A DNA stretch of 47,038 nucleotides, taken from positions 1 through 47,038 of IMG/VR virus record IMGVR_UViG_3300025168_000146. The stretch is one strand, 5' to 3'. Below the pieces are notes generated by a model. The model was given only the letters and a program-made list of their open reading frames with translations. It was not told where the DNA came from and made no database searches. Origin of the DNA: a virus. Positions 22,359-47,038 of this stretch are shown in pieces; position 1 is the stretch's first letter, and each line of letters opens with the position of its first letter. Both the position numbers and the translations under genes were made by a program.

Positions 22359-23087
22359 ATGGACCCAAATGAAAAATTAACAGGTATAACATCAATGGCA
22401 CCCCCAGGAATGGGTGGACCGCCTCCAGGACCTCCGATGGGTGGACCTCCAATGGGGGGACCTCCCCCAGGAATGGGTGGTGGACAACCTCCAATGCCTG
22501 AACAAGGAATGGGTGAAATGGCTATGGAAGGACAACCTCCTATGGAAGAAGGAGCTCCAGACCCTCAACAAGATGCAATGATGTTAGCTGAAGCTGTTGT
22601 AGATAGAGCAGGTGGGGATATAAACGCAGCTATCGGTTTAATTGATAATACTAAAGATATGTTAATACAAGCGGCAAGTGCTGGTGGTCAAGAACCACAG
22701 ATGATGATGGGCGGCGGACCTTTGTATGCTCAAATGGGAATGCCTATGTATAAAGAAGACGGTGGTGAATTAAACCCTGGATTACAAGCGTTACAAAAAA
22801 CAAATCCTGAAGTCGTTGATCAAATTCTAAAAAGAGAAGACGGTGGACCTATGTATGCTAATATGGGAATGCCTATGTATGCTAATGAAGGTACAAGTTT
22901 ATCTGATTCTGATATGTTACGTCAAATGATTATGGAAAACTTACAAAAACCAGATATACAAGAACAAATGATGAGCGAAGCTATGGGTCAGTTACAAGGT
23001 CAATCAGGTAGAAGTATGTCTGATAAAGATTCTATGTCTTACCAAGATGCTTTAGATATGTTAGTAAAACAAAGAACTGACGGTTAA
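22359..23087 (+). CDS. Gly/Pro/Met-rich protein with duplicated GMPMY motif
   Basis: 242 residues. The first 65 residues are collagen-like Pro/Gly/Met runs (PPGMGGPPPGPPMGGPP). Residues about 75-110 (DAMMLAEAVVDRAGGDINAA) form a helix. A motif occurs twice: GGGPLYAQMGMPMY and DGGPMYANMGMPMY. The pattern GG-P-MYA-MGM is familiar from C-termini of marine phage internal virion proteins. Last gene of the + strand structural block; it ends in TTAA shared with the stop of the convergent helicase. Confidence 0.6.
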   Translation: MDPNEKLTGITSMAPPGMGGPPPGPPMGGPPMGGPPPGMGGGQPPMPEQGMGEMAMEGQPPMEEGAPDPQQDAMMLAEAVVDRAGGDINAAIGLIDNTKDMLIQAASAGGQEPQMMMGGGPLYAQMGMPMYKEDGGELNPGLQALQKTNPEVVDQILKREDGGPMYANMGMPMYANEGTSLSDSDMLRQMIMENLQKPDIQEQMMSEAMGQLQGQSGRSMSDKDSMSYQDALDMLVKQRTDG

Positions 23088-24526
23088 CCTATCCAATCTT
23101 TCCATTTCTCGTCACCTAGTACTTCTTGTGCTAGGTCGAGTTTATTTCTTAGGGCTTTAACAATCTTTTCATCTACAGTTCCTTTAGCAACAAGGTCTAT
23201 GTAGGTTACTTTATTAGTTTGACCTATACGATGAGCACGGTCTTCAGATTGTAATCGTTTTTCGAGGTCATAATTATTACTATAATAAATAACATTACTT
23301 GCTTCGGTAAGCGTAATACCATAACCACCTGTTTGAGTATTACTAATTAAATATTTAAGTTCTGAGTTTGGGTCTTGAAATCTTCTTATTATTTCTTGAC
23401 GGTCTTCGTCTGGTGTTTCTCCATAATAAGTAGCTACGCTATTAACCCCTGCTATATCATGTAGTTTCTTTCTAATTCTTTTTATATCGAATTGATAGTT
23501 AGCCCATATAATAGTTTTACCTTGTACTTCTTCTAAGATATTTATTAGTTCATCTAAACGGTTAGAAGCTATTTCAACTTCTTCTCCTTGGTCATGTTTA
23601 ACGAAACCACATACGACTTGATGTAATCTTAGGATTTGTGTAAGTACTGAAGTTACACTAACTATTTCATGAGAGTTTAATTCAGCGATAGCGTAATCTG
23701 TTAATTGTTTATAGACTTTCTTTTGTTCAGGAGTTAGTTCTACTTCCCTACGTTGATATACTTTATCAGGAAGGTCTAAACACTCTTTCTTTAGCACCCT
23801 ATAAGAGAACTCATTTACATTTCCAGTAAGTTCTTCTAAATTTTGATAACCAACGACTTGCCTAAAGGTTCTAGTTCCCATAGTTCTATTAATTAGTTTT
23901 GCATATCTATTTTGAAATGAATAAAAAGATGTATAACCTAATAGTTGTGGTGATAGAAATGTACTTTGACTATATAAATCTAACGGTGATTGAGTAACGG
24001 GAAATCCTGTTAATATTCTACGGTATTTTGTATTGACTGCTAACTTCAATAAATTCTTAGTACGTTGTGCTTTAGGGTTTTTAATAGTAGTAGATTCATC
24101 AACAGCTATTAAACAATTATGGGCAAGTATAAATTTCTCAACAAATGCTACGCCTTTCTTCGTACTAAATGCTTCTACATTAACAACTAATATTTTTAAA
24201 TCATCTGTTACATCGAACAGTTTTAGTAGTTCTTGTTTTTGTTTATTAGTAGGAGCAGGTGTCCATACTGCCATATATTTTTCTATATGGTCAGGCATAT
24301 GACTAGGTATCTCTTTCTCAGACCAGTTTCTATAAACGCCTTTAGGTGCTATTATTATAGCCGCATTGATTCCGCCTTTATCATATAATAAAGCTATGTT
24401 ATCTATAAGTACTTTTGATTTACCAGTACCCATTTCCATAAAATAAGCATATTCTTTTTTATTCCAAGAACGTTTTAATGCTTCAAGCTGATGCTCATAT
24501 GGCTTCGTTTTAAACTTATATTTCAT
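23084..24526 (-). CDS. SNF2-family DNA helicase/ATPase
   Basis: 480 residues, the only convincing gene on the - strand. Superfamily 2 motifs in order: YEHQLEAL (Q-like), MEMGTGKSKVL (Walker A), IIAPKGVYRNW (Ia), IAVDEST (DEAD-box variant DEST), RILTGFPVTQSPLDLYSQ (III, LTGTP variant), then C-terminal KTIIWANYQFDIKRI, TQTGGYGITLTEASNVIYY and RLQSEDRAHRIGQTNKV (VI). SNF2 ATPases translocate on duplex DNA. Phage members probably help replication, recombination or protection. It converges on the structural block with a 4-base overlap and no terminator between. Its upstream region carries the shared composite element described at 24557-24611. Confidence 0.93.
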   Translation of the reverse strand: MKYKFKTKPYEHQLEALKRSWNKKEYAYFMEMGTGKSKVLIDNIALLYDKGGINAAIIIAPKGVYRNWSEKEIPSHMPDHIEKYMAVWTPAPTNKQKQELLKLFDVTDDLKILVVNVEAFSTKKGVAFVEKFILAHNCLIAVDESTTIKNPKAQRTKNLLKLAVNTKYRRILTGFPVTQSPLDLYSQSTFLSPQLLGYTSFYSFQNRYAKLINRTMGTRTFRQVVGYQNLEELTGNVNEFSYRVLKKECLDLPDKVYQRREVELTPEQKKVYKQLTDYAIAELNSHEIVSVTSVLTQILRLHQVVCGFVKHDQGEEVEIASNRLDELINILEEVQGKTIIWANYQFDIKRIRKKLHDIAGVNSVATYYGETPDEDRQEIIRRFQDPNSELKYLISNTQTGGYGITLTEASNVIYYSNNYDLEKRLQSEDRAHRIGQTNKVTYIDLVAKGTVDEKIVKALRNKLDLAQEVLGDEKWKDWIG

Positions 24527-24556
24527 ATCACCTTTCTAATTTCTAGTTCCCATTAT

Positions 24557-24611
24557 ATATTACAAATAGATATAAATAATAGCCCAAACAAAAAGTTTTC
24601 CCATGCCCTCT
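24557..24611 (-). promoter_or_regulatory. Composite promoter/activator element upstream of the SNF2 helicase (copy A)
   Basis: Read on the - strand: AGAGGGCATGGGAAAACT (24611 to 24594), exactly 30 bases, then GTAATAT (24563 to 24557), then GGAACTAGAA (24550 to 24541) and the helicase ATG at 24526. The same three words, with the same 30-base spacing between the first two and one mismatch in 18, occur at 46468-46522 before the terminase gene. TAATAT would be the -10 box. No -35 box is present, so the 18-mer is probably an activator site. TATTAGAAACA also occurs upstream in both copies. Confidence 0.7.
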
Positions 24612-24718
24612 AATAGAATAATCTGTTTCTAATATTGATTATTATAAAACTAATATCGATAAATCCTTTTAAACACTAGGTAAATTTAAAGTCAGTATTA
24701 GTTTATTAAAGATATTAG
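24610..24718. promoter_or_regulatory. Cluster of CTAATA-type words in the 315-base divergent gap
   Basis: The 24527-24841 gap holds no gene. Between copy A of the composite element and the early promoter it contains CTAATAG (24610-24616), CTAATAT (24629-24635), CTAATAT (24650-24656) and inverted forms TATTAG (24696-24701) and ATATTAG (24712-24718). The same word is clustered in the 46232-46547 gap. The spacing is irregular. I read them as operators, or less likely origin iterons; AT-richness alone would give some by chance. Confidence 0.45.
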
Positions 24719-24780
24719 TAGTTATTAAAAAATTTTTAGTATAAAGTTTTTCTTTTTAAAATATATATATCGGTAATAGC

Positions 24781-24809
24781 TTTACTTTGACTTTATTGAT
24801 ATATATTAT
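24781..24809 (+). promoter_or_regulatory. Early promoter, module 1
   Basis: TTTACT (24781-24786, preceded by AGC), 17 bases, TATTAT (24804-24809). TTATTT (24806-24811) and AAATAA (24821-24826) can pair at the transcript start. The leader AGAAAGGAGAA precedes the GTG start at 24842. First and leftmost member of the recurring early module; it drives the replication genes. Confidence 0.7.
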
Positions 24810-26505: not shown

Positions 26506-28029
26506 ATGTCGTTAGCAGAAGAATTTGCTAAACGCTACGCAGGACTACGTTCGGCTTATGGGACTTTTACAGCAAGTAATGACCTAAGAGAAGATGGCAA
26601 GGCAAGTGGTAAGAACATAACCATATCTAAGGAGTTGTCTGATAAAGACCTCCTTGGGTTATGGGAAAACCATTTGTCAGGTCAGCAGAGTGTTGGAATT
26701 GTAGCGATAGATGAAGAAAACAGTTGTGTCTGGGGTGCTATAGATGTTGATGAATATCAACTAGACCTAAAAGACTTAGCTAAGAAAATAGCTAAACAAG
26801 AATTACCTCTTGTCTTATGCCGAAGTAAAAGTGGCGGTGCTCATATTTATATATTTTTAAATGAAGCTATATCAGCATCAATGTTACAAAGAAAACTAAG
26901 ACAGATTGCCGCTTCTATTGGTTATGGACAAGCAGAGATATTTCCAAAACAAACTAAATTATTATTAGATAGAGGTGATAGAGGAAGCACCTTAAATATG
27001 CCATACTTTGGAGGAGAGAACTCTACAAGGTATGCCTACGGTAAAGAAGGACAAGCATTAACCCCTAGAGAATTTTTAAACTATGCACAAACTATAGAAC
27101 TAAGCCCCAGTCAATTAGAAAAGCTTGAAGCTAGTCCTTTAACTGAATCAGTAGAGTGGCTAGACCAAGCACCTCCATGTATACAACATTTAATAGTACA
27201 GGGTTTTCCTAAGGGAACAAGAAACTCAGGATTATTTAATGTAGGTGTGTTTTTAAGAAAGAAATTTCCAGACGATTGGGAAAAACGATTAGAAGATGTG
27301 AATATAAAGTATATGCAACCTCCGTTAGGGGCACAAGAAGTATTAACGATTGGTAAACAATTACAAAGAAAAGATTACTTTTATAAATGTAATGACCAAC
27401 CAATATCTAGTCATTGTAATAGTCCTTTATGTAGGACTCGTAAGTTTGGTATCGGGGCTAATGGAGGGACACCTTTATTTAGTAACCTTACAAAACAAGA
27501 CAGTGACCCTCCTATATGGTTTTTAGATGTAGAAGGCGGTCGTCTAGAGTTAGAGACTGACGACTTGTTAAATCAAAACAGGTTTCAGCGTAAATGTATG
27601 GATTCTTTAAATAAGATACCACCTAAAGTAAAAGAAAACGTGTGGAATCAGATTATACAACAGTTACTAGACGCTATAACTATAGTAGAAGTACCTAAAG
27701 AAAGTTCTACCGAAGGTCATTTCTTAGAACTATTAGAAAACTTTTGTACAGAAAGACCTGCTAGAGAACGTGATGAGTTATTGTTACATAAACCTTGGAC
27801 AGATAAAGGCAGGACTTATTTTAGGTTAGCTGATTTAATGGATTACTTACATAAAAATAACTTTAAAGATTACCAAAGGAATAGACTAACCTCTAAACTA
27901 AAACAGCTTCATGGAGAGCCGTACTTTTTTAATATAAAAGGTAGAGGTGTAAACGTATGGTTTATAGAAGAATTTAAAGCACAGGATGAGCCCCATGACT
28001 TACCTAACTTTAACGATAATTTATTATGA
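26506..28029 (+). CDS. Archaeo-eukaryotic-type (AEP) DNA primase
   Basis: 507 residues. The AEP catalytic core is readable: Asp80 and Asp82 (WGAIDVDEY), SKSGGAHIYIFL with His113, and Glu144 (GQAEIFPKQ). This resembles primases of the TOTE/LigD-like branch found in phages and conflict elements. A Cys cluster follows at about 293-310 (KCNDQPISSHCNSPLCRTRK), then a helical C-terminus (DYLHKNNFKDYQRNRLTSKL) like a PriCT or winged-helix domain. It would make primers, or polymerise, at the replication fork. No DnaB-type helicase is present in the window, so the UvrD or SNF2 proteins may supply unwinding. ATGA overlap with the next gene. Confidence 0.82.
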   Translation: MSLAEEFAKRYAGLRSAYGTFTASNDLREDGKASGKNITISKELSDKDLLGLWENHLSGQQSVGIVAIDEENSCVWGAIDVDEYQLDLKDLAKKIAKQELPLVLCRSKSGGAHIYIFLNEAISASMLQRKLRQIAASIGYGQAEIFPKQTKLLLDRGDRGSTLNMPYFGGENSTRYAYGKEGQALTPREFLNYAQTIELSPSQLEKLEASPLTESVEWLDQAPPCIQHLIVQGFPKGTRNSGLFNVGVFLRKKFPDDWEKRLEDVNIKYMQPPLGAQEVLTIGKQLQRKDYFYKCNDQPISSHCNSPLCRTRKFGIGANGGTPLFSNLTKQDSDPPIWFLDVEGGRLELETDDLLNQNRFQRKCMDSLNKIPPKVKENVWNQIIQQLLDAITIVEVPKESSTEGHFLELLENFCTERPARERDELLLHKPWTDKGRTYFRLADLMDYLHKNNFKDYQRNRLTSKLKQLHGEPYFFNIKGRGVNVWFIEEFKAQDEPHDLPNFNDNLL

Positions 28030-28613
28030 TACATTATATAAAACATTATTTTAAAGACGATGAACCTAGAATAACAGAATGGGATGAACCTAGAGAAAGA
28101 CAGTTCGAAGGTAAAACTGTAAAAGGCAGACCTACAAAAGGTTATGGCAGTTCTTCTTTTGATTATGCAGGTAAACTCTACAAACCAGACCCATGGACTT
28201 ATCCGATGACGATAATAAAAGAAAAAGCAGAGAAATTAATATGGGAAGAATTTGGTATTCATAAAGAATTTACATTTTGTTTATGCGGTTATTACGCTAG
28301 AGACGGTAAAGGAATACCACACCATTCAGACACCGTTCCTACATTAGATGATTTAGTTGTTTCTATTTCTTTTGGAGCTCCTCGTGTATTTATACAACGT
28401 ACCTATCAAAACCCTATTAAAGACCATACTAACACTAGTGAAATAAAAGACCTTTCGAAAGAAAATTTCATAGTAGACGAAAGATTTTTTGTTTTAGAAC
28501 ACGGAGACGTTTTAATGTTCGATGGACATAATCAAATGAAATCTACTCACGCTGTTCCTGATTTACAGAATACAGAGAAAAGAATTAATCTAACATTTAG
28601 GACTGGGTTATGA
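28026..28613 (+). CDS. AlkB-like 2-oxoglutarate/Fe(II) dioxygenase
   Basis: 195 residues. Iron ligands His100 and Asp102 (IPHHSDTV) and His175 (KSTHAVPDL), and 2OG-binding Arg186 and Arg192 (KRINLTFRTGL). VVSISFGAPRVFIQR is the conserved core strand. Length and order match AlkB/ALKBH proteins, which remove alkyl groups from nucleic-acid bases. Located between the primase and the UvrD-like helicase with 4-base overlaps, so replication- or repair-linked. It could also be a base-modifying hydroxylase given the neighbouring modification-type genes. Confidence 0.88.
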   Translation: MIHYIKHYFKDDEPRITEWDEPRERQFEGKTVKGRPTKGYGSSSFDYAGKLYKPDPWTYPMTIIKEKAEKLIWEEFGIHKEFTFCLCGYYARDGKGIPHHSDTVPTLDDLVVSISFGAPRVFIQRTYQNPIKDHTNTSEIKDLSKENFIVDERFFVLEHGDVLMFDGHNQMKSTHAVPDLQNTEKRINLTFRTGL

Positions 28614-30657: not shown

Positions 30658-31578
30658 ATGTCATCAATAAGAAAGAAATTAACTGTTAACGAAAACGACA
30701 GTAAAAACACAAGAATGGACCTTGCTTCGGCGGGGGTATTAGCGAACTGGAGACCCGATGAACTTGCTCATATAAGCAGGTTTGATAAGATATCTAGTTT
30801 ATGTATTAGCGAGGCTAAAGAACTAGGTAGACCGTTAGATACATTTGAAATGGGTTGTGGAGAGTGTTGGGTACTTAGGAATTTATATAAAGCATACGTT
30901 GTAAAGAAATCTGATATTATCAGTTCTTATTACGGAACAGATATAGACCCTGCCTGTGAGATAGAAAACCCGTACTGGTCTAATGGAGGAGAGCCTTTAG
31001 TTGATTCTACTTGGTTTAAAAACTTTAACGGTAAACTCAGTATAGTTGATGTAACTGTTCCTCAGTTCAATGAAAAGGGTAAGCGACTCAATATATTCCA
31101 TGAGTTAGCAGACGAAAGTATTGACTTCTTTTGGTCTACTGAAGTTATCGAACATATGGGCAGAGAGTTCGTTGGTCCTTGGCTAGACGATGCAGCAAGA
31201 ACAATGCGACCTAATGCATTAGCTTATATATCAACGCCTAACCACGACGGTTCTAACGACAAATTACCTGAAGACCACGTATACGAGTGGGGTTTTCAAG
31301 AACTTAAAGAAGAACTAGAAAGGAACTTTATTATAGAAGACGTTACAGGAACTTTTATACAACTACCTAATTTAAGGAAAGCTATGAAAGAACAAGTAGA
31401 ACCTTCTGTTGATGGAATACCTCTACATAGTACTGTAAAAAGATACCCTAGAGCATGGACTCCTGAACAAGTAGAGATGTTAGAAACTAGATATGGTAGA
31501 CAGTTCTTGCGTGTAGCAGCAGCAGCACCTTATCCTGAGTATTCTAATAATTGTGCGTGGGTATTAAGGAAAAAGTAA
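30658..31578 (+). CDS. SAM-dependent methyltransferase (class I)
   Basis: 306 residues. Motif I DTFEMGCGECWVLRNLY binds S-adenosylmethionine. YYGTDIDPACE gives the acidic residue that holds the ribose. FFWSTEVIEHMGREFVGPWL and MRPNALAYISTPNH are typical of methyltransferase type 11 proteins. No DPPY or PCQ signature of adenine- or cytosine-DNA methylases is seen, so the substrate is open (small molecule, tRNA, or a modified base). Coupled by TAATG to the hmdU-kinase-like gene, which suggests one pathway. Confidence 0.82.
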   Translation: MSSIRKKLTVNENDSKNTRMDLASAGVLANWRPDELAHISRFDKISSLCISEAKELGRPLDTFEMGCGECWVLRNLYKAYVVKKSDIISSYYGTDIDPACEIENPYWSNGGEPLVDSTWFKNFNGKLSIVDVTVPQFNEKGKRLNIFHELADESIDFFWSTEVIEHMGREFVGPWLDDAARTMRPNALAYISTPNHDGSNDKLPEDHVYEWGFQELKEELERNFIIEDVTGTFIQLPNLRKAMKEQVEPSVDGIPLHSTVKRYPRAWTPEQVEMLETRYGRQFLRVAAAAPYPEYSNNCAWVLRKK

Positions 31579-32498
31579 TGACACCATTTATTCGAGAAGA
31601 GTTGGACAGATATTGTTATTGGCAAACAGAGAGGGAACTTATACGTCAGCGTAAAGAAGTATATAAAATGCCTTCTCCGTGGACAGATGACCCAATTCTT
31701 CGAGAATTTAAGTTTTGTCAGGTTTTCCGAGAAGAAGATAGAAATACTCGGTGGTTTAGAGAACATATAAGAAAACCTATGGAGAATAATCCAGATGTTT
31801 TTATGGCTACCGTTATTTTCAGGTGGTTTAACCATATAGATACAGGCAGGACTTTAATAGAACATAACCTACTAAAAGACTGGAACAGAAAGAAAGCTAT
31901 TAAGGAAATAACTAAACAGCCTCAATGGATTACTGGTGCTTATATTATTAAAACACCAAACGGTATGGACAAAGTTACAGGAGTCGCTGAATGTATTTCT
32001 CATATGTGGAAAGATAGAGAATATTTAGTTAATGAAATTCAACAAACTAAATCTTTAGAAAACGTGTGGACTCTACTTAGAGATTATCCATATATGGGAC
32101 CATTTATGGCTTACGAGGTAGTTACAGATTTGAGACATACTTATCTATTAGAAGATGCAGAAGATGTGCTTACGTGGGCTAACGCAGGTCCAGGAGCCAT
32201 GAGAGGCTTAAATAGATTAACAGGTAGAGAATTAGGTTATTCTAAACGTAGCCACGACTGGTGTGGTGAGATGAGGGATTTATATAAAACGGTTATTGAA
32301 AGATTACCTTTGTCTGTAATAAGACGTAATGATTTACCGTATGAGATGAGAGAGATAGAAGGAGGACTTTGTGAGTTCGATAAATACTCTAGACTGTATA
32401 AAGGTCAGGGTAGAACAAGGTCTATATATAAACCAAATAATCGTCCTATGGTGGAGGATTTAATAGATGGAGAAAGTAAGTATGGGAAAAATGAGTGA
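31578..32498 (+). CDS. 5-hmdU DNA kinase helical-domain / thymine pyrophosphorylase-like protein
   Basis: 306 residues from the ATG at 31578 (TAATG overlap). The sequence YKMPSPWTDDPILREFKFCQ, then VFREEDRNTRWFREH, is the signature of the helical proteins Iyer and colleagues linked to hypermodified thymine in phages (annotated as 5-hmdU DNA kinase helical domain or alpha-glutamyl/putrescinyl thymine pyrophosphorylase). Later parts (VFMATVIFRWFN, DYPYMGPFMAYEVVTDLRH, AGPGAMRGLNRL) fit the same all-helical, HhH-containing family. A role in DNA-base modification is established for some family members, but which reaction this one performs is unknown. A thymidylate synthase homologue lies 200 bases downstream. 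Confidence 0.78.
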   Translation: MTPFIREELDRYCYWQTERELIRQRKEVYKMPSPWTDDPILREFKFCQVFREEDRNTRWFREHIRKPMENNPDVFMATVIFRWFNHIDTGRTLIEHNLLKDWNRKKAIKEITKQPQWITGAYIIKTPNGMDKVTGVAECISHMWKDREYLVNEIQQTKSLENVWTLLRDYPYMGPFMAYEVVTDLRHTYLLEDAEDVLTWANAGPGAMRGLNRLTGRELGYSKRSHDWCGEMRDLYKTVIERLPLSVIRRNDLPYEMREIEGGLCEFDKYSRLYKGQGRTRSIYKPNNRPMVEDLIDGESKYGKNE

Positions 32499-32703
32499 TA
32501 GAGCAATAGAGCTCTTAGAAGACTGGGGGGACTCAGTTGATATTTATTATACACAATTCTTAGAAGTAGCATTCTTTTTAAAGGTATCTTCGAGTGAGTC
32601 TATGGCAGTAGCTTTTGTAAAACGAAAGCTTCCGTTACTAACAGATGATGAGATACGCTACCTTATAGGAGAAATAGTAGAAGGATATCAAAGTCAGCTA
32701 TGA
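32467..32703 (+). CDS. Small hypothetical protein between modification genes
   Basis: 78 residues, overlapping the previous gene by 32 bases. GGAGG at 32453-32457 fits the ATG at 32467; ATGs at 32482 and 32491 are alternatives. The sequence contains AIELLEDWGDSVDIYYTQFL and VKRKLPLLTDDEIRYLIGEI, helical and amphipathic. The stop overlaps the next start (ATGA). Function unknown. Confidence 0.6.
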   Translation: MEKVSMGKMSDRAIELLEDWGDSVDIYYTQFLEVAFFLKVSSSESMAVAFVKRKLPLLTDDEIRYLIGEIVEGYQSQL

Positions 32704-33791
32704 AGGTAATTAATGCAAGAAATGTAAACGATGCTTTACTACTTGGTATCGATTTATTTAATGACGATACTAGTTATAGAGTACAAGAAAGCCGTAACGG
32801 TACGACTTACGAGGCATTAGACCCTGTAACGACTGTTTATAATAAACCTTGGGAAAGAGTTTGTTTAATAAACGAAAGAGATGCTAATCCTTTTTTCCAT
32901 TTTATAGAAAGTCTTTGGATGTTAGCAGGACGTAGTGATTTAAAACCATTAACTTATTTTGTTAAATCTATGGAAGATTTTTCTGATGACGGTGATATGT
33001 TGTGGGGTGCTTATGGTTGGAGATGGAGAAGTTATTTCCTTAAAGACCAGTTAGAAATAATTGTTAAAATGTTAAAAGAAAACCCTGAAGATAGACGAGC
33101 CGTTTTACAAATGTGGGACCCTTTGAAAGATTTAAATAGACAAGGTAAGGACGTTCCGTGTAATACGAATATCTATTTTAAAATCAGAGAAGGTAAATTA
33201 AATATGACTGTATGTAATAGGTCTAATGATATGTTGTGGGGTGCTTACGGTGCTAACGCAGTTCATATGTCAGTTTTACAAGAATATATGGCAGCTTTGT
33301 TAGATGTTGAAATGGGTGTTTATAGACAAATTAGTGATAGTTTTCATATTTACTTAAACCCTGTTTGGGATAAAGTTAAAGATATGGAGTTAGATATTTA
33401 TACATATAGAGATATAAAGAATCCATATGATACCTATATAAATGAACACGAACACTTACCCTTATTTCCAAACGCTAATACTTTAGAGTGGGAGTTAAAT
33501 AAATTCTTTAATATGTATCCTGTTGATAATTGGTTATATGATGATTTAGATGATATTAATTGGATATATGATGATTTAGATGATATTAATTGGTCAAACT
33601 CAGCACTTAAAGATATAGCTGTTCCTATGGTACGAGCCTACGCTTCATACAAAAATGGTGGTTTTAAATACGCATACGAAAAAATAAATGATATAAAAGC
33701 TCTAGACTGGAGAAGAGCTTGTCTCGACTGGGTCCGCAAACGAGATAAGACTATTACTAACCCTGCGGAAAAGGAGAAAACTCATGACTAA
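32700..33791 (+). CDS. Thymidylate synthase family protein (TS or dUMP hydroxymethylase)
   Basis: 363 residues. The catalytic cysteine Cys154 lies in DVPCNTNIYFKIREGKLN. The phosphate and nucleotide binders RSND (Arg174, Ser175, Asp177) and His216/Tyr218 (SFHIYLN) are present. Differences from standard ThyA: His after the Cys is Asn, and the dUMP-recognition Asn (Asn186, GAYGANAV) is displaced by one residue. TS-fold dUMP hydroxymethylases of hypermodified phages share this fold, so either product (dTMP or hm-dUMP) is possible. The neighbouring hmdU-kinase-like and DUF1599-like genes favour modification. Residues about 278-297 hold a 10-residue tandem duplication. Confidence 0.85.
   Translation: MKVINARNVNDALLLGIDLFNDDTSYRVQESRNGTTYEALDPVTTVYNKPWERVCLINERDANPFFHFIESLWMLAGRSDLKPLTYFVKSMEDFSDDGDMLWGAYGWRWRSYFLKDQLEIIVKMLKENPEDRRAVLQMWDPLKDLNRQGKDVPCNTNIYFKIREGKLNMTVCNRSNDMLWGAYGANAVHMSVLQEYMAALLDVEMGVYRQISDSFHIYLNPVWDKVKDMELDIYTYRDIKNPYDTYINEHEHLPLFPNANTLEWELNKFFNMYPVDNWLYDDLDDINWIYDDLDDINWSNSALKDIAVPMVRAYASYKNGGFKYAYEKINDIKALDWRRACLDWVRKRDKTITNPAEKEKTHD
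33531..33590 (+). repeat. 30-bp perfect-phase tandem duplication in the TS-like gene
   Basis: Units 33531-33560 and 33561-33590 differ at a single base and encode WLYDDLDDIN followed by WIYDDLDDIN. The near identity at third positions indicates a recent duplication. It keeps the frame and adds an acidic loop to the protein. Confidence 0.9.
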
Positions 33792-34447: not shown

Positions 34448-36313
34448 ATGTTACAAGGTTCGATGTTTCCTCCAAAAAGTTCATGGTCTGTTCCTGCTAT
34501 TTTTCCTCAGTTCTCTGATACAGAAACAATAGCAGTAGACTTAGAAACTTATGACCCTCATCTTATGACTTGTGGTCCAGGATGGGCTACAGGTAGGGGT
34601 TATGTAGTCGGGGTAGGAATAGCTACAAAAGATTGGCAAGGCTATTTTCCTATACGTCACGAGGGTGGAGGAAACCTTGACGAAGGTCTTGTACTTAGGT
34701 GGTTGAAAAATACTCTATCGTCTGAAAAACGTGAAGTTATTTTCCACAACTCACTCTACGATGTGGGTTGGTTAAGGAGAGAAGGGGTTGATGTAAAAGG
34801 TAAAATACTTGATACTATCGTCGCCGCACCGTTAGTTAACGAAAACAGATATTCTTATTCGTTAGATAACTTAGGTGAGTTTTATTGTAATCAGAAAAAA
34901 GACGAGTCTTTATTACAAGATGCAGCACTAGCGTTTGGGATTAATCCTAAATCAGAAATGTATAAACTACATTCTAAATACGTTGGTCCTTATGGTGAGC
35001 AAGATGCAGCACTAACCTTAAAACTTTGGAATAAGTTAAAGGTTGAGATAGCAGACCAAAACTTAGAAAACATATTAGATATGGAATGTAGGTTAATCCC
35101 TCTATTATTAGAAATGAGATGGAGAGGAGTTAGAGTAGACGAAGAAAAAGCTGATACAGTTAGTAAACGATTATCGATACAAGAACAAAAGATAATGGTG
35201 GAGATTAAAAGACAGTATGGCTCTGAAGTAAACCTTTGGGCTAATGCTTCTTTAGAAGCTATCTTCGAAAAGAATAAACTATGGTTTCCTAGAACAGCTA
35301 AAGGTATGCCTAGTTTCCAAAAAGATTGGTTAGAAGGACATGACCATGAACTACCTCAACTTATTGTTAAAGCTAGAAAACTTAATAAAGCAAGAACTAC
35401 TTTTATCGATAAGATGATTAAAGACCATTGTTTTAACGGCAGGATACACGCAGAAGCACATGCTATGCGTAACGACCGTGGCGGCACGGTCAGTGGTAGG
35501 TTTAGTTATAGTAATCCTAATCTACAACAAGTTCCTGCAAGAGACCCAGAAATAGGTAATTTAATCCGTTCTTTGTTTATACCTGAAGAAGGGTGTAAGT
35601 GGGGTGTATTCGATTACTCTCAACAAGAACCTAGATTAACAGTACATTACGCAGACCAAATGAAGTTAACAGGTGCTCAGGATGCAGTAACACTCTATAC
35701 AGAAGAAAATGCTGACTTTCACCAAATAGTAGCAGATATGGCAAATATACCACGTAAACAAGCTAAAACTATTAACCTTGGTTTGAGTTATGGAATGGGT
35801 AAAGAAAAACTAATTAATGAATTAGGTCTAGATGATACGGAAGCTGAAAAGCTTTTTCAACAATATCATGCTAAAGTTCCTTTTATAAGGGCATTACAAG
35901 ACCAATGTGCAAGAGTCGCGATGGATAGAGGTTATATAAAAACCTTTGCTGGAAGACGTTGCCGTTTCGATTTATGGGAAAGTAGATACGAACGCACTCT
36001 ACCTCTACCATTAGAAGAAGCGAAAGAAAAGTACGGTGATAATTTAAAGCGTTCATATACATATAAAGCCCTAAATCGTTTAATACAAGGCTCAGCTGCT
36101 GATATGACAAAATTAGCTATGCTCGGTCTATGGGAGGAAGGAATAGTTCCTCACCTACAAGTCCACGATGAAGTTGATATTTCAATAGAGAACACAGAAC
36201 AAGCCAACACAGTAACAAGAATAATGGAGAACTGTGTAAAACTTGCTGTACCCCTATTAGTGGACCAAGAACTAGGAACGTCATGGGGCGAAACAGAGGA
36301 AATAAAAAGATGA
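34448..36313 (+). CDS. polA: DNA polymerase I (family A) with 3'-5' exonuclease
   Basis: 621 residues. Exonuclease motifs: Asp31 and Glu33 (AVDLETYD), Asn101 to Asp105 (FHNSLYDVGWL), Tyr182 and Asp186 (YGEQDAAL). Polymerase motif A Asp389 (GVFDYSQQEPRL), motif B RKQAKTINLGLSYGMG with Lys440, motif C His573-Asp-Glu575 (LQVHDEVDI). All catalytic residues are intact; there is no 5'-3' exonuclease domain, as in T7. The residue matching E. coli Phe762 is Leu444 (INLGL). It is the replicative polymerase. ATGA overlap with the following HTH gene. Confidence 0.97.
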   Translation: MLQGSMFPPKSSWSVPAIFPQFSDTETIAVDLETYDPHLMTCGPGWATGRGYVVGVGIATKDWQGYFPIRHEGGGNLDEGLVLRWLKNTLSSEKREVIFHNSLYDVGWLRREGVDVKGKILDTIVAAPLVNENRYSYSLDNLGEFYCNQKKDESLLQDAALAFGINPKSEMYKLHSKYVGPYGEQDAALTLKLWNKLKVEIADQNLENILDMECRLIPLLLEMRWRGVRVDEEKADTVSKRLSIQEQKIMVEIKRQYGSEVNLWANASLEAIFEKNKLWFPRTAKGMPSFQKDWLEGHDHELPQLIVKARKLNKARTTFIDKMIKDHCFNGRIHAEAHAMRNDRGGTVSGRFSYSNPNLQQVPARDPEIGNLIRSLFIPEEGCKWGVFDYSQQEPRLTVHYADQMKLTGAQDAVTLYTEENADFHQIVADMANIPRKQAKTINLGLSYGMGKEKLINELGLDDTEAEKLFQQYHAKVPFIRALQDQCARVAMDRGYIKTFAGRRCRFDLWESRYERTLPLPLEEAKEKYGDNLKRSYTYKALNRLIQGSAADMTKLAMLGLWEEGIVPHLQVHDEVDISIENTEQANTVTRIMENCVKLAVPLLVDQELGTSWGETEEIKR

Positions 36314-36648
36314 AAGGTATCTCAGAAATAAAAGCTAAAGAAAACTCCATTAAATACAGAACTATGTATGAAAAATGGTCAGAAGAAAAAACTACTCTAG
36401 AACAATTAGGTAAAGAGTATGACATAACAAAACAACGTATGTGGCAAATAGTTACACGTTGTAAACTCGGTGACGGAGATTATTACTATGGTGTACAAAT
36501 AGCACGTAATAAATGGGCAGAATTAAAGTCACTCTACTCGGATGTTGAACAAACACAAAGGGCTTTTAATGAATGGTTAGGTGAGCGAGACGTCAAACTA
36601 GCTTCGGACAACCAAAAAGTTGCTCCGCATACAGGATGGAACTGGTAA
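36310..36648 (+). CDS. HTH protein with sigma-region-4-like helix-turn-helix
   Basis: 112 residues from the ATGA overlap at 36310. Residues about 27-60 (KTTLEQLGKEYDITKQRMWQ, then IVTRCK) read as the helix-turn-helix of sigma-70 region 4: a T-L-E-x-L-G-x-x-x-x-I-T-x-Q-R-x-x-Q-I pattern. No region 2 is present, so it is not a full sigma factor. It could bind a -35-like or activator box, perhaps the composite element found in the two gaps. This link is inference. Confidence 0.7.
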   Translation: MKGISEIKAKENSIKYRTMYEKWSEEKTTLEQLGKEYDITKQRMWQIVTRCKLGDGDYYYGVQIARNKWAELKSLYSDVEQTQRAFNEWLGERDVKLASDNQKVAPHTGWNW

Positions 36649-43301: not shown

Positions 43302-43493
43302 ATGATATGTTCATTATGCCGAGAGAAAATACCGACTGCACGAGCTAACCTAGGTTATTCGACCTGTACGACGTGTGGCGAGGAAGCCGCACAGCGACTA
43401 GCTGAGCAGCGTAAAACACAGGTTGCACCGACCTATAACAAAGGTGCGTATCAATATATTACACTTGAAGATACTAAAACTATTGGGAGGTAG
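43302..43493 (+). CDS. Small zinc-ribbon protein
   Basis: 63 residues. MICSLCREKIPTARANLGYS then TCTTCGEEAAQRL: two CxxC pairs 16 residues apart, a zinc ribbon of the DksA/TraR or general phage type. C-terminus ends TKTIGR. Possible binding to RNA polymerase or nucleic acid. The last codons carry GGGAGG, the ribosome site of the next gene. Confidence 0.7.
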   Translation: MICSLCREKIPTARANLGYSTCTTCGEEAAQRLAEQRKTQVAPTYNKGAYQYITLEDTKTIGR

Positions 43494-46231: not shown

Positions 46232-46254
46232 GATAGTTCCCTAACCTATCTTTG

Positions 46255-46280
46255 CCCTCGCCTCGTGCGGGGGTTTTTTA
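46255..46280 (+). terminator. Rho-independent terminator closing the early region
   Basis: CCCTCGC (46255-46261), five-base loop, GCGGGGG (46267-46273; one T-G pair), then TTTTTTA. GC-rich stem in an AT-rich genome, directly after the last early gene. It separates early from late transcription. Confidence 0.93.
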
Positions 46281-46349
46281 TGTCTATTAATCTATTGTAT
46301 TGTTATCTGGTAAAATAAAAAAGTTTTTGTAAATAAATCTCACGATTGG

Positions 46350-46447
46350 CTAATATCACTAATATACTAATAGAATCACTCTACAAGTCTCTTGGTTATA
46401 GAATCTGATGAATCATCAAAACTAATAGAATTGCTATTAGTTATTAG
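46350..46447. promoter_or_regulatory. Cluster of CTAATA words including a 21-bp palindrome
   Basis: In the 316-base gap 46232-46547 there is no gene. CTAATAT (46350-46356, 46359-46365), CTAATAG (46367-46373, 46422-46428) and inverted CTATTAG and TTATTAG (46434-46440, 46441-46447). ACTAATAG, five bases, CTATTAGT (46421-46441) is a perfect inverted repeat. The same word is clustered in the gap at 24.6 kb. Operator sites are the simplest reading. Confidence 0.55.
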
Positions 46448-46467
46448 AAACATAAGGTAAGATACCT

Positions 46468-46522
46468 AGAGGGCATGAGAAAACTATTAAAAAGATATAT
46501 TATTATAATATGATTGTAATAT
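46468..46522 (+). promoter_or_regulatory. Composite promoter/activator element before the late operon (copy B)
   Basis: AGAGGGCATGAGAAAACT (46468-46485), exactly 30 bases, GTAATAT (46516-46522), then GGAACTAGAA (46539-46548) overlapping the start of the terminase gene. It matches copy A at 24557-24611 (one mismatch in the 18-mer, identical spacing). The distance to GGAACTAGAA is 10 bases longer than in copy A. TAATAT is a likely -10; no -35 is visible, pointing to activator-dependent late transcription. Confidence 0.7.
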
Positions 46523-46547
46523 CACTTGGTAAACACGAGGAACTAGA

Positions 46548-47038
46548 ATGAAACAGTTAAGTTATACAATACTGACACCAACAGAAGACGGTAATGCTTA
46601 TACAGATTCGGACGGTAAGATTTGGCAGCAACTCAACAGTAAACAAAAGAAGTTTTGTAAAGAATATCTCAAAGGACAAACAGCTACTGATTCCGCGATA
46701 AAGGCAGGGTATACAAAGGACAGGAAGGGTGCTAAGACACAGGGCAGTGTATTACTGAATCATAACCCAGTCGTTCGGAACTACCTCATCGACTTGGAAA
46801 TCGCAGCTTCGGAGAAGGATGCAGTTTCTCTAGAGAATCATTTATCCACGCTTCATGATTTGCGTGAAGAAGCCAAGGACCAAGGTCAAATATCCGCAGC
46901 TATCACAGCCGAGGTCCATCGAGGCAAGGCTGGTGGACTCTACATTGATAGACGCGAGATACTAACGGCAAAGATTGATTTGATGTCCAAGGACGACTTG
47001 CTCGACCGACTCGAAACAATGATTAAGAAACGAGCGAC
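46548..47038 (+). CDS. terS: Small terminase subunit (3' partial)
   Basis: At least 163 residues, cut by the window edge. WQQLNSKQKKFCKEYLKGQT followed by ATDSAIKAGYT is the helix-turn-helix of terminase small subunits (Terminase_2 type), and GSVLLNHNPVVRNYL closes it. The C-terminal half is charged and helical (SLENHLSTLHDLREEAKDQG). It recognises the packaging site and loads the large terminase, expected just beyond the edge. Codon use is visibly less AT-rich than in the genes before it. GAGGAACTAG serves as ribosome site. Confidence 0.85.
   Translation, partial: MKQLSYTILTPTEDGNAYTDSDGKIWQQLNSKQKKFCKEYLKGQTATDSAIKAGYTKDRKGAKTQGSVLLNHNPVVRNYLIDLEIAASEKDAVSLENHLSTLHDLREEAKDQGQISAAITAEVHRGKAGGLYIDRREILTAKIDLMSKDDLLDRLETMIKKRA

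Follow-up and report, generated by a model that had tools for sequence, protein, structure and literature searches.

We describe a composite sequence element that stands twice in 47,038 bases of viral DNA (record IMGVR_UViG_3300025168_000146; this whole stretch, both ends of which were probably cut, is called the window below). With a probability of roughly 0.7, we read the element, on the strength of its sequence, as an activator-dependent late promoter, at the core of which an early phage protein, most likely the helix-turn-helix (HTH) protein encoded at 36310–36648, would recruit the host polymerase. According to this model, the phage protein, made early, would bind an asymmetric core (AGAGGGCAYGRGAAAA in the window's clade) centred about 53 bp before the predicted start, and once bound would bring in host RNA polymerase, equipped with the housekeeping sigma factor; the promoter itself would be weak, with a -10-like box (TGTAATAT) and a -35 that is degenerate at best. 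One copy, before the gene of the terminase small subunit (terS), would drive the operon for packaging, lysis and structural proteins, and the other, pointing the opposite way, would drive only an SNF2 helicase gene; phased TATTAG/CTAATA repeats upstream would probably be additional sites, bound either by the activator itself or by a partner. We infer the late timing and the start sites given below. In the related phage HTVC027P, host RNA polymerase is used throughout infection (PMC12753301).

The closest named phages are 023Pt_psg01, the Pelagibacter phages HTVC027P and HTVC023P, and DSL-LC04, with protein identities of approximately 46–57%, and the window's clade appears to comprise uncultivated marine phages related to HTVC023P/HTVC027P-type pelagiphages. 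The host is presumably a Gram-negative marine bacterium; it was sought through a search of genome contigs with TerS, which returned a single weak match of 35 residues. The early arm (24842–46231) carries genes for primase, helicase, DNA polymerase and DNA modification. The late genes begin with terS, the core of which lies about 190 nt beyond the early-arm terminator, and run on toward the part that is absent from the window; in one complete relative, terL is found on the same strand as terS, about 3.3 kb downstream. The features that frame the early arm are as follows.

46548–47036, + strand: terS (PF03592, E 1e-12), cut by the window end, proposed first gene of the late operon
23084–24526, - strand: SNF2/HepA-type helicase gene, standing alone behind the second element copy
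46254–46280, + strand: intrinsic terminator closing the early arm, upstream of the proposed late promoter

Early genes also encode a 5-hydroxymethyl-dU DNA kinase (31551–32498, E 1e-48), a thymidylate-synthase-like protein (32700–33791), a 2OG-Fe(II) oxygenase (28026–28613) and a methyltransferase-like protein (30658–31578), and the DNA of the window's clade may contain hypermodified thymine.

The sequence-only reading had placed a composite element before terS and the SNF2 gene, and this was correct to the base: AGAGGGCATGRGAAAACT-N30-GTAATAT occurs at 46468–46522 (+) and 24611–24557 (-), and nowhere else in the window. GTAATAT begins exactly 30 nt past the 18-mer in both copies, and each 18-mer sits in the gap 5' of its gene. 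Chance had been judged an improbable source of the match, and the figures agree: with up to three mismatches the 18-mer still gives just these two sites in the window, dinucleotide shuffles average 0.10, and a two-copy outcome was obtained in 0 of 100 shuffles. The terS (+) and SNF2 (-) sites are so placed that they mark the outward-facing ends of the early arm, as had been proposed. A dyad, an inverted or an internal repeat was sought in the 18-mer and was absent, the core being asymmetric.

46468–46485, + strand: 18-mer core of the terS copy, proposed activator site, about -61 to -44 (sequence and conservation)
46516–46522, + strand: GTAATAT, -10-like box on the terS side, predicted start near 46529 (sequence spacing)
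46442–46452, + strand: TATTAGAAACA box upstream of the terS core, 15 nt before the 18-mer
24594–24611, - strand: 18-mer core of the SNF2 copy (sequence and conservation)
24552–24563, - strand: GTAATATATAAT, -10-like box or boxes on the SNF2 side, predicted start near 24545–24550 (sequence)
24624–24634, - strand: TATTAGAAACA box upstream of the SNF2 core, 12 nt before the 18-mer

Two flanking sequences had been described as common to both copies. The TATTAGAAACA box does precede each core, at the gaps listed above; GGAACTAGAA, which follows GTAATAT by 17 nt (terS) and 6 nt (SNF2), is not conserved in the terS copies of relatives, and we therefore regard its match as a coincidence in this genome and have dropped it from the element. 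In SNF2 copies, TAGAAATTAGAAAG represents a conserved leader ahead of the gene.

Relatives were retrieved by their TerS and SNF2 proteins instead of by motif, in order to avoid selection on the motif itself. Absence of the element from the same two loci in close relatives had been named as evidence against it; it was looked for there and is present. Of the 54 distinct terS upstream regions from uncultivated marine phages, 53 have the core with GAGGGCAY intact and the remaining one differs by one change; the core is also present in 44 distinct SNF2 upstream regions. The -10-like box lies 38 or 39 nt after GAGGGCAY in 51/53 distinct terS copies and 39/44 distinct SNF2 copies with the core, that is, in 90 sequences in all, with widely variable spacers. 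In complete or long relatives, a weight-matrix scan detected the terS and SNF2 copies alone, everything else reaching at most 8 of 34 bits; the scan detected the terS copy only in the G021–G025 sub-clade and no copy in the four named relatives, among them HTVC027P, whose helicase is gp87 and whose TerS is gp29. Genomes G021, G022, G023 and G025 have lost the SNF2 core and retain the CTAATA triplet and a canonical terS copy; since one sub-clade thus has the terS copy without the SNF2 copy, the pairing is not obligatory. The altered SNF2 upstream sequence of G021–G025 was also considered as a covariant variant, which was ruled out by the canonical terS copy there, leaving loss as the explanation. 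The exact 18-mer was present in 60 stretches of viral contigs, often two per contig, a minority being coincidental coding matches (in L008, L012, L016 and others it encodes a Walker-A-like RGHGKT, and these were set aside as chance). The terS promoter region had no match in any named phage.

It had also been stated that no -35 box is present. There is indeed no consensus box, but -35-like matches are slightly better than in shuffled spacers, with a mean best match of 3.38 of 6 vs 2.73 for terS and 3.12 of 6 vs 2.63 for SNF2; TTGATA is present in 10/48 terS copies, and TTGG or TTGA in most SNF2 copies. Between the 18-mer and the -10-like box, TTTGGGCTAT (24582–24593, - strand) is conserved in SNF2 copies and absent from terS copies, and is possibly a degenerate -35. 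A separate class of early promoter, CTTTACTTTG, had been overlooked by the sequence-only reading. Four exact instances lie in the window (24780, 30112, 36780 and 40206), all of them in + strand orientation in gaps between early genes and mostly followed by a -10-like hexamer and a AGAAAGGAG-type leader, and the site before the first early gene is conserved in most relatives.

24780–24809, + strand: early promoter CTTTACTTTG, TTTACT-17-TATTAT, facing away from the SNF2 promoter (sequence)

The two copies do belong to one class of element, and this element is larger than first described, with an array of TATTAG/CTAATA hexamers upstream that had been missed. In the window as a whole these hexamers are near expectation (77 vs 61 expected); clusters of at least three occur at the two element loci only. 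Most relatives likewise cluster them at these two loci, with a few further clusters of four elsewhere, and in named phages no such clustering was seen at the loci.

46350–46372, + strand: CTAATA triplet on the terS side, starts at 46350, 46359 and 46367 (sequence, comparison)
46421–46447, + strand: CTAATAGAA/TATTAG inverted repeat plus direct TATTAG (sequence, comparison)
24610–24655, - strand: three direct TATTAG repeats, spacing 21 and 19 nt, the last reaching into the 18-mer (sequence)
24696–24718, - strand: CTAATA triplet on the SNF2 side, middle unit degenerate (sequence)

Among relatives, the repeats mostly keep the same distances from the core: terS copies have the CTAATA triplet at -121/-112/-104 from the core GG in 32–37 of 46 sequences and TATTAG at -29 in 31/46, and SNF2 copies have TATTAG at about -47/-26/-7 relative to the core. 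Some 150 nt before the terS core, a further stretch (46288–46345, TAATCTATTGTATTGTTAT...AAAAAAGTTTTTG) is nearly invariant among relatives.

Arrays of this kind, very AT-rich, could alternatively be replication-origin-like iterons, with the 18-mer as an initiator site and not a transcription signal. The confinement of the clusters mainly to these two loci, in regions whose AT content ranks with the highest in the genomes, speaks for iterons. We nevertheless hold this to be improbable: in front of both genes the core keeps a fixed distance and orientation to the -10-like box, and one clade retains the repeats without the SNF2 core. The GC skew shows no switch there, but with almost every gene pointing the same way this carries no information. 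A still less probable proposal is that the 18-mer works at the RNA level, being a leader or an antitermination site within transcripts begun further upstream. In lambda, antitermination serves the late genes, and here one promoter must serve about 40 kb of late genes, with no further copy found by the weight-matrix scan; against this, four segments fold no better than their shuffles (z -0.20 to 0.66), and the 18-mer lies upstream of the conserved -10-like box.

Evidence for a shared protein at the two promoters comes from sister clades, which have variant cores, GG[GCA][CT][AG][CTG]GAG, at the same position. Both copies read GGGCAYGRG in the window's clade, GGACAnGAGGAAA in G033, and GGCCnnGAGAAAA in G043 and in G045. 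In five genomes, one per clade, the copies differ by 2.6 mismatches within a genome vs 4.55 between genomes, and the true pairing was the most extreme of all 120 (p = 1/120, 0.008); joint change was likewise detected with 7 genomes (p = 0.001) and with 22 (p = 5e-5, though these genomes are related). As both copies change together within a genome, either one protein recognises the two of them or they recombine with each other, and joint change could stem from such recombination. The -10-like box is displaced by about 4–5 nt in sister clades. In G046–G054 the SNF2 copy is not recognisable and the gene of the candidate HTH protein is present; in G057–G060 it is the terS core that is not recognisable, and the HTH gene is present with a W to H change in the helix. 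G057–G060 (L468, L470, L484, and the terS upstream regions of L397, L402 and L408) show TATTA-rich arrays ahead of terS, and these genomes may hide a more distant type of site.

The proposal that an activator binds the 18-mer is thus supported, through the joint change of the copies, as regards a shared site-specific protein, and activation rather than repression is what we infer. Joint change is compatible with any site-specific protein, including a phage or host repressor at an operator, which would hold the terS and SNF2 promoters down early and give late expression on derepression with no activator needed. The TATTAG arrays look like cooperative operators, and weak -35-like hexamers are kept in some copies. 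Repression is nonetheless unlikely in our view, given that the core lies 44–61 bp before the predicted start, clear of -10 and -35, that its fixed 38–39 nt to the -10-like box suits contact with polymerase, and that the -35 matches are poor for a promoter working unaided.

For the activator-dependent promoter, we put forward a single candidate from the early operon.

36310–36648, + strand: 112-aa helix-turn-helix protein, directly after polA, candidate late activator (profiles, distribution, model)

If the promoter reading is right, this protein has a somewhat better than even chance of being the activator, judged from sequence features. It is present in 19/19 clade contigs searched, in 21/23 sister contigs and in G032/G033, absent from the four named relatives without the element, and without a match in any named phage. 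Among early proteins found in all element-bearing genomes and not in element-free relatives, it is the only one with a predicted DNA-binding domain; four other early genes (30658, 31551, 32700 and 33784) share its distribution, and none resembles a DNA-binding regulator. The helix TKQR[MVI]WQI[IV]TRC is unchanged in G021–G025 despite about 50% overall protein identity, and the core is unchanged too. In clades with other cores, the recognition helix differs, W to S accompanying GGACAnGAGGAAA in G033 and G061; the window and G033 provide natural site variants, GGGCATGAGAAAA vs GGACACGAGGAAA, the latter with the W to S protein. After allowing for relatedness, the association of helix and core gave a partial Mantel r = 0.22 (p = 0.06); it is largely phylogenetic, and the remaining correlation is suggestive. 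Some sister genomes encode a shortened protein consisting of the HTH alone.

Profile searches place the HTH near sigma region 4 and Mor: 19/27 family members match Sigma70_r4 (best 5e-8) and 21/27 match Mor, and the HTH of the window protein, TLEQLGKEYDITKQRMWQI, is like TLEEVGKQFDVTRERIRQI of RpoD region 4. Every one of the 23 clade members gives a weak PF08765 match across the HTH; the window protein reaches 17.9 bits, for the HTH part only, and thus stays below the Mor Pfam cut-off of 24.9 bits. PHROG families annotated 'late transcriptional activator' are matched by 13/27 (phrog_532) and 5/27 members (phrog_836), the window protein matching neither. In its predicted model (pLDDT 79.8) the HTH lies within five helices. 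Foldseek gave no significant whole-fold match; the best hit of VIA-align 2 (Z 5.2, rmsd 1.8) covered 50 residues of DeoR, which amounts to the HTH alone, and the matches listed included no sigma or Mor structure.

Another early protein or a host factor might instead activate a correctly identified promoter, with the HTH protein doing something else. Given the promoter reading, we rate this somewhat below even: the helix-core association falls to p = 0.06 once relatedness is allowed for and further early genes have the same distribution, but the HTH protein alone among them has a predicted DNA-binding domain, and members of its family match late-activator families. Other proteins were considered and rejected. 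Close to terS, named relatives encode proteins of approximately 200 aa, and DSL-LC04 has products labelled 'HTH regulator' and 'sigma-G'; none of these has a homologue in the element-bearing clade. The zinc-finger-like early proteins at 43302, 44338 and 36816 were discarded, as some element-bearing genomes lack them.

The mechanism is best read as working like the promoters of Ltr/RinA/Alt, Mu Mor/C and P2 Ogr. P2 Ogr promoters have an activator site near -55 and no -35, as proposed here; the Ogr activator is of the zinc-finger type and its site is a dyad, whereas our candidate has a sigma-4-like HTH, and no Ogr/Delta Pfam match was found among 40 right-arm proteins scanned (25–46 kb). The Ltr/RinA-type layout, with a promoter directly 5' of packaging genes, a conserved -10 box and upstream sites, is what the sequence here presents, as in staphylococcal phi11 (RinA) and phi13 (Ltr) and lactococcal TP901-1 (Alt). 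In these phages the repeats lie at -107 to -42 (phi13 Ltr promoter) and -76 to -32 (Alt), both upstream of terminase operons (PMC13123087). A small phage regulator made early and a single promoter for packaging, structure and lysis are further shared features, predicted in our case. In contrast, those are phages of Gram-positive bacteria; here a second copy is proposed to drive the SNF2 helicase, the candidate gene lies in the middle of the early arm and not beside terS, and one asymmetric core with TATTAG repeats makes up the site. No RinA/ArpU model was among the NCBIfam matches listed for the candidate family (best 25 of 54).

Mu middle and late promoters (Mor, C) share a poor -35 and, in Mu, a small HTH activator of the Mor family, to which the weak PF08765 matches here correspond. 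The Mor site is a dyad overlapping -35, centred at -43.5 (PMC4287176), whereas the core described here lacks a dyad and has its centre near -53; membership in the Mor/C family (PF08765) therefore found support neither in the profile cut-off nor in a dyad site over -35. Although the HTH resembles region 4 of sigma-70 (RpoD), the candidate has no region 2 and its site is too far upstream for a -35 element. A promoter of an alternative sigma factor would have two boxes separated by about 17 nt and recognised by a single sigma factor; the 30 nt between core and -10-like box do not fit this, nor does a candidate with a region-4-like HTH only.

In the papers found on the HTVC023P/HTVC027P-type phage group, the main text leaves promoters unmentioned, and for pelagiphages of the HTVC023P type, as for their uncultivated relatives, there is essentially no description of how late genes are controlled. 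The general design is familiar from other phages; new are the site, the helicase gene as a second target, and the candidate activator. Tentatively, at slightly less than even odds, we picture a large uncultivated marine phage lineage with a dedicated activator family, whose members would be a sigma-region-4-like HTH standing alone, with a C-terminal tail that is dispensable; the helix and its two sites would have co-evolved through several changes of specificity, giving a late regulon of two promoters that fire outward from both ends of the early arm. We can now name a specific promoter, a further target gene and one best candidate for the activator, together with natural variants of site and protein, and the motifs can be used to predict which genes in these genomes are early and which late. 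If the pairing of helix and site holds, these phages would offer a small natural series on how a sigma-4-like helix changes its DNA specificity.
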